A DNA stretch of 64,000 nt, taken from Micromonospora lutea (GTDB taxonomy: Bacteria > Actinomycetota > Actinomycetes > Mycobacteriales > Micromonosporaceae). The notes under the pieces were generated by a model, which had not been told where the DNA came from, did not search any database, and saw only the letters and a list, made by a program, of their open reading frames with translations. The stretch covers positions 1 to 64,000 of the forward strand of contig NZ_BOPB01000025.1 in the NCBI RefSeq assembly GCF_016863535.1. The letters are read 5' to 3'. This document shows positions 52,696 to 55,769 of the stretch, piece by piece. The position numbers and the translations under genes are program-made. Every line of letters begins with the position of its first letter. The first letter of the stretch is position 1.

Positions 52696-54690
52696 TCAGT
52701 CCTCGTCGGACTTCCCGCCGCTCATCCCGGCGGAAATCAGCTCCATCACGGACGAATCCTGCAACGTGGTCACGTCACCCAGCGAACGGTTCTCCGCCAC
52801 GTCCCGCAGCAACCGGCGCATGATCTTGCCGGAACGGGTCTTCGGCAGCTCCGGCACCAGCATGATCTGCCGGGGCTTGGCGATCGGGCCGAGCGTCTTC
52901 GCCACGTGGTTGCGCAGCTCGGCGATGAGCTGCTCGCCGGCCTCACCGGAGATCTCGGTGCTGCCCCGGGGGATGGCGAACGCGACAATCGCCTGCCCGG
53001 TGGTCGGGTCGGTGGCGCCGACCACCGCCGCCTCCGCCACCGACGGATGCGACACCAGCGCCGACTCCACCTCAGTGGTGGAGATGTTGTGCCCCGACAC
53101 CAGCATCACGTCGTCGACCCGGCCGAGCAGCCAGATGTGCCCGTCGTCGTCCTTCTTCGCGCCGTCACCGGCGAAGTAGATCCACGGGGCATTGGCGTCG
53201 CCACTGGCACCGGCGCCGAACCGCGACCAGTACGTCTCGATGAACCGGTTGTCGTCGCCCCAGATGGTGCGCAGCATCGACGGCCACGGCTCGCGCAGCA
53301 CCAGATAACCGCCGCCGCCGTTGGGCACCGACTGGCCCTGGTCATCCACCACGTCCGCGACCACACCCGGCAGTGGAGTCATCGCCGAACCGGGCTTGGC
53401 GGCGGTCACCCCCGGCAACGGCGAGATCATCATGCTGCCGGTCTCGGTCTGCCACCAGGTGTCCACGACGGGCAGCTCACCGTGCCCCACGTGCTGCCTG
53501 TACCACATCCAGGCCTCGGGGTTGATGGGCTCGCCGACACTACCGAGCAACCGCAGCGAGGAGAGGTTGTACTCGGCGGGAATCTCCTCGCCCCACTTCA
53601 TCATGGTGCGGATCAACGTCGGCGCGGTGTAGAGGATGGTCACTCCGTACCGGTCGACGATCTCCCAGATGCGGCCCTTGTGCGGGGTGTCCGGGGTGCC
53701 CTCGTACATCACCTGGGTCACGCCGTTGGAGAGCGGACCGTAGACGATGTAGGAGTGGCCGGTCACCCAACCGATGTCCGCCGTGCACCAGTACACGTCG
53801 GACTCCGGCTTCAGGTCGAAGACCGCGTGCGAGGTGTACGCCGTCTGAGCCAGATAACCACCGGTGGTGTGCAGGATGCCCTTCGGCCGGGCGGTGGTGC
53901 CGCTGGTGTAGAGGATGAACAGCGGATGCTCGGCGTCGAACGGCTGCGCCGAATGCTCCGGCGACGCCTGCTCCACCGCCTCGTGCCACCAGAGGTCCCG
54001 CTCGGACCACTCGACCTCCCCGCCGGTACGACGAACCACCAGCACGTGCTCGACCGACGGGCACTTCGCCACCGCCTCGTCGACGGTCGGCTTGAGCGCG
54101 GAAGGCTTGCCGCGCCGGTAGCCACCATCGGCGGTGATCACGACCTTCGCCGAGGCGTCCTGGATCCGGTTGGTCAACGCCTCGGCGGAGAAGCCGCCGA
54201 AGACCACGCTGTGCGTGGCGCCGATCCGGGCACAGGCCAGCATCGCGACTGCGGCCTCCGGAATCATCGGCAGGTAGATCGCCACCCGGTCACCGGCGGT
54301 AACCCCGAGGTCGGTGAGCGCGTTCGCCGCCTGGCAGGTCATCCGATGCAGGTCCGCGTAGGTGATGGTGCGGCTGTCGCCGGGCTCACCCTCCCAGTGG
54401 ATCGCCACCTTGTCGCCCTGACCGGCCTCCACGTGCCGGTCGAGACAGTTGTAGGCCACGTTCAACTGCCCGCCGACGAACCACCTCGCGAACGGCGGCC
54501 GGGACCAGTCCAGCACCTGGTCCCACTTCTTCGCCCAGACCAGCCGGTCGGCCTGGCGCTCCCAGAAGGCGAGCCGGTCGGCCTCCGCCTCGGCGTACGC
54601 GTCAGCGGTGACGTTGGCGTCGGCGGCGAGTTCGGCCGGCGGCGGGAACTGGCGCGTCTCGTTGAGCAGATTGGCCAATGCCTCACTCAT
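52696..54690 (-). CDS. acs: acetyl-CoA synthetase
   Basis: A 664-residue AMP-forming enzyme that activates acetate with ATP and CoA. The phosphate loop is [20 protein letters not shown], the acyl pocket includes [10 protein letters not shown], and the C-terminal domain holds the catalytic, acetylation-controlled Lys in [11 protein letters not shown]. The ATG at 54690 has GGAG seven bases upstream. It overlaps the stop of a 27-codon leader frame and lies inside a 13-bp hairpin, so initiation may depend on leader translation. Confidence 0.96.
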
Positions 54691-54724
54691 GCCGACACTC
54701 CGCTTCGCTTCGTGTCGGCATGAG
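54686..54724 (-). promoter_or_regulatory. hairpin burying the acs start codon
   Basis: On the minus strand CTCATGCCGACAC (54724-54712) is perfectly complementary to GTGTCGGCATGAG (54698-54686), with a 13-base loop. The right arm contains the acs ATG (54690-54688); GGAG of the ribosome site is at the loop edge. The left arm lies inside the leader frame, so a translating ribosome would open the hairpin. Confidence 0.6.
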
Positions 54725-54770
54725 GCACCAGCGCGCTGCGTTGATGATTCGCTCGCTGCCGCTCACTCAT
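54687..54770 (-). CDS. 27-codon leader frame upstream of acs
   Basis: A short frame begins at ATG 54770 with GAGGAG seven bases upstream and ends at a TGA that overlaps the acs ATG (ATGA). It begins [15 protein letters not shown]. Its start region GGAGTGCAGGCATGAGTGAG is nearly repeated at acs (GGAGTGTCGGCATGAGTGAG), as if an insert had duplicated the start site. The peptide may be a leader whose translation controls acs through the overlapping hairpin. Confidence 0.5.
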
Positions 54771-54896
54771 GCCTGCACTCCTCGTCGTTCAGGTGATCTG
54801 GGTCTCTTCCGGGCAGGTTAGTCGTGGCGTACGAGCGAGGCGACCGATCCCTCGCGCGCCCGTCGCCCAACGGCCCCTCCCACGCGCCGAGGTGCA

Positions 54897-54947
54897 AGGA
54901 AGGGCACCTTGTTAACGCCTCCGGTAGAGGAAGGGTCCCCTGCTAAC
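54897..54947. repeat. imperfect direct repeat in the acs/Fic-like spacer
   Basis: AGGAAGGGCACCTTGTTAAC (54897-54916) and AGGAAGGGTCCCCTGCTAAC (54928-54947) match at 16 of 20 positions with a period of 31. Similar strings are, as I recall, scattered in Micromonospora intergenic regions. The rest of the 255-base spacer holds no gene. Confidence 0.6.
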
Positions 54948-55025
54948 ACGCCGCTACGGGTGGCGGGCGTCGCGTTGCCGGTTACTCGTGCCCGAAGCTG
55001 CCGACCCGGTCGCTAGCGTGACGGG

Positions 55026-55769
55026 GTGACTTCCGATCCGCTCGCGCCGCTGCTCGACCTTGCCGACATCGCCGCCGCCGTCGAGCGCGCCCGCGACCGG
55101 TTCGACCGGGCACTCGGCCATCGGGCGCTGCGCCGTCACGGCGGCCAGGTGGCGGCCGAGGTGAGTCTGCGCTCCGCGGTGGCCAGCGCCGCCCTGGAGG
55201 GCCACGACCACGAGCGGGAGGCGGTACGCGCCGGCACCGTCACCGAACCGGTGCTCCAGGGGGCGCTGCGGGTCGCCGGCGCCCTGCCCGGGCTCAGCGA
55301 ACTCTGGCCGAAGGCACCCCGACAGGTACTGGCGAAGCTGCACGTACTCGCCGCCCGTGAGGTGATCAGCGAAGCCGAGCTGGGCCGCCCGGTCGACGAC
55401 CCGGTGGTCGCCGCCCGGCTCGACGGGCTGGTCGCGCTGGTGGCCGGCGGTACCCAGGTGAGCCCGCTGGTGCTGGCCGCCGTCGTGCACGGCGAACTGC
55501 TCAACCTGCGCCCGTTCGCCGGCCCCTCCGGCGTGGTGGCCCGGGGCGCGGCCCGTCTCGTACTGCTCTCCACCGGCTTCGACCCACGCGGCCTGCTCGC
55601 CGTCGACGTCGGCCACCGCGAGCGTGAGCCGGAGTACGTGGGCGCGGCCGGTGCCTTCGCCACCGGCACCCCCGACGGGTTGCGATCGTGGCTGCGGCAC
55701 TACATGTCGGCTGTCGAAGTCGGTGCCGACCAGCTCACCGCGATCGGAGACGAAACACTGGCCGCCTGA
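55026..55769 (+). CDS. degenerate Fic-like protein (actinobacterial oxidoreductase-annotated family)
   Basis: A 247-residue helical protein of a family found next to HAD-IB/ssd genes in actinobacteria (Rv3662c-like by position). A Fic-like core is visible as VVHGELLNLRPFAGPSGVVAR, where the catalytic His is Arg and the GNGR turn is lost, so AMP transfer is unlikely. The GTG at 55026 has no ribosome site; a TAGCGT box seven bases upstream suggests a leaderless transcript. It is convergent with the HAD gene. Function unknown. Confidence 0.7.
   Translation: MTSDPLAPLLDLADIAAAVERARDRFDRALGHRALRRHGGQVAAEVSLRSAVASAALEGHDHEREAVRAGTVTEPVLQGALRVAGALPGLSELWPKAPRQVLAKLHVLAAREVISEAELGRPVDDPVVAARLDGLVALVAGGTQVSPLVLAAVVHGELLNLRPFAGPSGVVARGAARLVLLSTGFDPRGLLAVDVGHREREPEYVGAAGAFATGTPDGLRSWLRHYMSAVEVGADQLTAIGDETLAA

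Follow-up and report, generated by a model that had tools for sequence, protein, structure and literature searches.

The window analysed here, a stretch of 64 kb, carries on its minus strand the gene acs for acetate–CoA ligase, whose start is preceded by the features collected in Table 1. A leader frame begins with an ATG at 54770 and ends in a TGA (54689-54687) lying inside the ATGA at 54690-54687, the first three letters of which (54690-54688) are the acs start codon. The original prediction had described a 27-codon frame of this kind with a good ribosome site, a perfect 13-bp hairpin over the acs start codon and a near-duplication of the ribosome-site and start region, and all three were confirmed. 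The hairpin arms (13 nt, 54686-54698 and 54712-54724) are 100% complementary, and a direct repeat of 26 nt (85%, spacing 80; 54682-54707 and 54762-54787) spans both start regions.

The 61 nt from 54675 to 54735 have a folding energy of -32.8 kcal/mol, compared with a mean of -19.5 (sd 3.2) when shuffled, and 0 of 200 shuffles were as low; for 126 nt around the hairpin the values were -53.3 and -42.2 kcal/mol, with one shuffle in 200 as low. No Rfam match at E ≤ 1 was found within 54400-55100. Further upstream of acs, at 54897-54947, there is also a 20-nt repeat in two copies (AGGAAGGGCACCTTGTTAAC, 80%), and similar sequence occurs upstream of acs in several relatives.

Table 1. Features at the start of acs, in window coordinates
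Feature	Position	Strand	Basis
acs, acetate--CoA ligase, 664 aa	52696..54690	minus	TIGR02188, 955.9 bits (cut-off 724.95)
3' junction (acs start), ATGAGTGAG	54682..54690	minus	empty sites with only one such copy
Hairpin 3' arm, contains acs start codon	54686..54698	minus	covariation over 59 units
Leader frame, 27 codons plus TGA overlapping acs ATG	54687..54770	minus	sequence
One 80-nt unit of the start-codon mobile element	54691..54770	minus	model R1 match 54685-54770, 106.6 bits
GGAG before acs, element-borne, mostly in hairpin loop	54698..54701	minus	by eye
Hairpin 5' arm	54712..54724	minus	covariation over 59 units
5' junction (leader start), ATGAGTGAG	54762..54770	minus	sequence and acs orthologue comparison
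Host ribosome site AGGAG, now before leader	54778..54782	minus	by eye; similar site abuts acs in empty relatives

The repeat at the acs start is one copy of an interspersed, often tandem family. Within the 64-kb window, this unit is the sole significant match of model R1, apart from an antisense shadow of the hairpin at 54686-54724. A 201-nt query gave 20 BLAST matches in its own genome (G000), itself included, and some of the 19 others were partial and several tandem. With a covariance model built from 59 units, 34 matches were obtained in the same genome at E ≤ 0.01, including the acs copy; one of them is this hairpin read in antisense, and the lowest-scoring ones are doubtful. Fourteen loci in gene orientation start at or near RTGAGYGAGCG..GCGAGCGAATCATC, and 13 of these lead into the RTGAGC or RTGAGT of an ORF, the other (L020) being cut by a contig end.

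The family is also dispersed over many start codons in other genomes, and other actinobacterial orders are among its hosts. Model matches occurred in at least 99 of 150 genomes and 29 of 44 genera of the family (at most 29 candidates scored per genome), and in at least 75 of 298 genomes of the order, seven other families included (at most 15 candidates per genome); a few genomes show one candidate above 29 or 15, and these counts are lower bounds. Two congeners have 80 and 86 matches per genome. We chose 16 top-scoring loci, 13 of which belong to other genera, and in all 16 a leader of 27 codons overlaps the start that follows. Among the matches listed, the head pattern was found in Micromonospora, Verrucosispora, Plantactinospora, Phytohabitans and Virgisporangium, as well as in Nocardia, Nocardioides, Kitasatospora, Streptomyces, Nonomuraea, Kribbella, Pseudonocardia, Actinopolymorpha and an Acidimicrobiales MAG. 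Beyond the family, a stop-start overlap follows in 21 of 24 head matches, at a distance of 125-152 nt in three of them, and a stem over the next start exceeds shuffles (p ≤ 0.05) in 13 of 17 tested copies (17 of 23 loci entered this test; L315 was dropped at the filter).

Comparison of acs starts attested to an insertion with defined boundaries. Of the 61 genomes of the genus with acs, 59 entered the comparison (G047 and G070 were left out). Read by eye, the element is present in seven, own genome included; the other 52 have an empty site, with the acs ATG directly behind a conserved ribosome site. The closest relative by acs (97% protein identity) has no element there. The insert is patchily distributed on a tree of acs from 30 genomes, where the sisters of G000 and of G071 are empty, and this implies repeated gain or precise loss. 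Since two subfamilies of the element are present at acs among the genomes of the genus, the gene was probably struck at least twice.

Empty and occupied sites were likewise found at other genes. At gpsA, the element is present in 9 of 29 genomes (by eye) and empty relatives exist (G024 compared with G002 and G044); four more genomes have shorter inserts or scar-like extra codons. At nuoN, there are two units in the own genome and none in G007. The empty sites at acs, gpsA and nuoN support the earlier idea that an element inserted at the start codon and copied it. The extra codons after some gpsA starts (L216, L218, L222, L229) resemble remnants of the element head.

At either end the insert has ATGAGY, or a little more, in common with the host, which makes target duplication and target preference inseparable. 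The codon-2 letters at the two ends agree beyond expectation (T/T 4, T/C 4, C/T 4, C/C 55; p = 0.005, a value that ignores the relatedness of copies), a hint of target duplication that is suggestive only. Host bases before the first start match the element end slightly more than shuffled ones do, but we did not rely on a wider target duplication, because some of the 'first' units (L055, L151) sit inside arrays.

In the own genome, the genes behind the element include those for anthranilate synthase component I (trpE), glycerol-3-phosphate dehydrogenase (gpsA), NuoN, class I fumarate hydratase (fumA), an acetate/propionate family kinase (ackA-family), Era, an OppD-like ATPase and transport permeases, and several have no family match. 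The copy at the kinase gene (L175, G000:C22:46793-46866) is 68 nt long. Over 94 loci from this and other genomes, a list that favours high-scoring matches, the end of the unit directly opens a same-strand ORF of 100 codons or more, or one that continues past the edge of the locus, in 82; eight of the other 12 lead to another 27-codon frame. At 47 of the 94, a frame of 100 codons or more coming from upstream stops in the leader's own ATGA. As a scale for these counts, the window has 111 RTGAGY sites, and at 37 of them a frame of 100 codons or more begins, whether or not it is a gene. At five loci (L451, L452, L079, L325, L268) the head of the element is fused in frame to the gene, and the protein seems to have an element-derived N-terminus.

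Unit length is conserved: among 112 units at 94 loci, 93 are of 80 nt and 10 of 81 nt, the rarer lengths being 77, 68 and 72 nt (two each) and 71, 82 and 73 nt (one each). The two subfamilies differ by one-base indels that cancel each other, +1 near the head and -1 further on. The 81-nt units fuse in frame with what follows and may for that reason represent a tolerated error.

The leader frame is conserved along with the length. Traced from the element start codon, 90 of 94 copies lead through an NTGA overlap to an ORF of 100 codons or more; the other four are two in-frame fusions (L451, L452), one dead copy (L407) and one without a start codon (L180). This count took one unit per array, mostly the last, with the upstream array units not entered, and left out copies cut by contig ends (L170, L177, L178), weak hits (L182, L185) and antisense hairpin matches (L155, L171, L181, L188). 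Its list and that used for position, 94 entries each, overlap without being identical, and both favour high-scoring matches.

By a stricter script, restricted to full-length matches, 57 of 61 loci arrive at a frame at the end of the unit. Delivery was 74% after one random insertion, 4% after one deletion and 60% after shuffling of the interior, implying that unit length, more than openness of the frame, holds the signal. The leader frame is open in all of a first set of 62 units of 80 nt, compared with 1 and 37 for the other forward frames; one reverse frame, however, is open in 61 of the 62, so base composition contributes to openness, which by itself may be taken as weak evidence.

The hairpin is conserved too. 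Over 59 units, 91.0% of the cells of the stem are paired (86.5 when shuffled), seven pairs have changed on both sides (3.2 shuffled) and the covariation score is 0.163 (0.087 shuffled), figures that are inflated, as are the frame counts, because the copies are related. For all five measures the outcome was 0 of 500 shuffles, and slid versions of the stem scored lower. One inner pair (columns 55/82) is unpaired in 34 of the 59 units.

We consider it quite probable that the acs repeat is a non-autonomous mobile element sitting exactly at the acs start codon, and tolerated there because its leader keeps the host gene translated. Each 80-nt unit starts with a new start codon (RTGAGY), placed to use the ribosome site of the host or the end of the upstream gene, and contains a 27-codon frame whose TGA overlaps the host start, a GGAG and the hairpin covering that start. 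Ribosomes would initiate on the leader, read through it, open the stem, halt at the ATGA and start acs, either by unfolding or by reinitiation; sections of a 2025 review describe both models of coupling (PMC12548453). Tandem units would chain by the same stop-start overlap.

As ribosomes would pass from the unit to the host gene, insertion should cost the host little. Translation of the leader, opening the hairpin and delivering ribosomes, is consistent with the pattern seen in the copies, which have conserved the frame, the length and the hairpin that coupling would require. The leader is presumably translated and acs dependent on that translation, with the sequence of the leader peptide itself probably of no consequence.

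The original prediction had seen here a translational switch for acetate activation, and a leader followed by a start-codon hairpin does have the form of one. A regulatory leader specific to acs, sensing acetate, energy or amino-acid supply and turning acs on, would also find some favour in the 68-nt copy at the acetate/propionate kinase gene of the same genome; that copy is the sole hint of an acetate theme, came after the fact, and we take it as a coincidence. Because the element is missing at acs in 52 of 59 genomes, the nearest relative included, and because it stands before many unrelated genes and in many genomes, an acs-specific switch was rejected as highly improbable. It is just as hard to believe that slippage or recombination at ATGAGYGAG motifs produced local duplications independently at each gene, with no mobility involved. 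The near identity of tandem units in one locus and the scar-like extra codons at gpsA would fit such events, but the sequence between the start motifs is common to unrelated genes and orders, and is missing from empty orthologues.

An effect mainly on transcription, with the element bringing a promoter or a regulator site and the frame being secondary, would have precedents in M. tuberculosis: parts of two reports ascribe promoter activity to the senX3-regX3 MIRU region (PMC4213456) and correlate a repeat array upstream of fpg1 with the fpg1 mRNA level (PMC2734929). A promoter, however, would not need the unit length and the stop-start overlap that are kept here, and we regard this explanation as unlikely.

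In mycobacteria, the known start-codon repeats are the MIRUs, which reportedly go back to Supply et al. in 1997; to our knowledge, how they move is unsolved. The 2025 review presents MIRUs as apparently mobile repeats whose insertion sites are start codons and whose frame, coupled at -4 nt, likely limits harm (PMC12548453). The mobile element described here resembles them in being a short repeat, often in tandem (80-nt units, 34 own-genome matches), which has inserted at start codons in the direction of the gene and carries a small frame with a stop that overlaps the host's start (-4 nt in MIRU; NTGA in 90 of 94 copies here, with empty sites). It differs in its 80-nt units, compared with mostly 53 nt in the MIRU units examined, in the GY that follows its start where MIRUs have varied dinucleotides, in the covarying hairpin over the start codon, and in its hosts, mostly of other families.

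In sequence the two are distinct. On 30 loci with MIRU-like units, found with a MIRU motif, the best R1 match overlapping a unit had E = 0.24 and the best overall, located elsewhere, 0.047; since R1 does not find MIRUs, we rejected the identification of the element as a MIRU by sequence. The MIRU motif matched in 41 of 78 genomes of a genus from another family of the order (g8 in f8), which we took for Mycobacterium. A complete coupled leader is present in 20 of 38 motif matches (30 loci), 15 of these being of 53 nt. Under strict filters, no element was found in that genus among the matches listed for 298 order genomes, and the hosts named in the head-pattern scan, among the matches listed, are other genera. 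By its architecture, then, the element appears to work like a MIRU, and we do not class it as one. The 41 genomes with the MIRU motif contrast with a statement in one report that confines MIRUs to M. leprae and the M. tuberculosis complex (PMC4213456).

Other known systems share some traits with the element. Like the translationally coupled leaders or uORFs treated in sections of the review (PMC12548453), it has a short frame overlapping the next start and a structure over that start; unlike them, it has as its leader a mobile repeat that precedes many genes. We found no title or abstract in the open-access literature on such elements in Micromonospora or another non-mycobacterial genus. A different family of short repeats, of 56-60 nt (GTGAGCGCGAGGAGTG..CCCCGCAGTCGCGAACG) and partly tandem, was also seen at gene starts, with 11 distinct units in the loci examined (L249, L256, L258, L248 and L247 at the nuoM-nuoN junction; L292; L441).

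REP sequences are mobilised by Y1 (RAYT) transposases. They resemble the element in being short, dispersed and hairpin-bearing without an enzyme of their own, and differ from it in that the element sits at start codons. The own genome has one Y1 transposase (PF01797), but 9 of the 14 congeners that have at least 14 element matches possess no such enzyme, so that the Y1 transposase expected in hosts of REP is lacking from these element-rich genomes. Given the absence of correlation, it was rejected as the mover. Presumably, some activity supplied in trans moves the element.

It is tempting, though rather doubtful, to think of start codons as a niche for a class of mobile DNA in Actinomycetota. 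The 80-nt hairpin family, the MIRUs and at least one other short family at nuoN would then be separate lineages, all targeting RTGA and bringing a disposable frame with a stop-start overlap, and one hairpin would serve both as recognition structure and as an RNA lock making the host gene depend on the frame of the element.

There is now a second family of start-codon repeats that follows the logic of MIRUs; its hosts are soil actinomycetes, each genome may hold tens of copies, and the empty sites are clean. With it, two questions become open to test: what moves elements of this kind, and whether a leader that is mobile sustains the translation of a host gene. It also matters for annotation, as a copied start and ribosome site lies ahead of many start codons in these genomes, and a few genes appear to have acquired their N-termini from the element.
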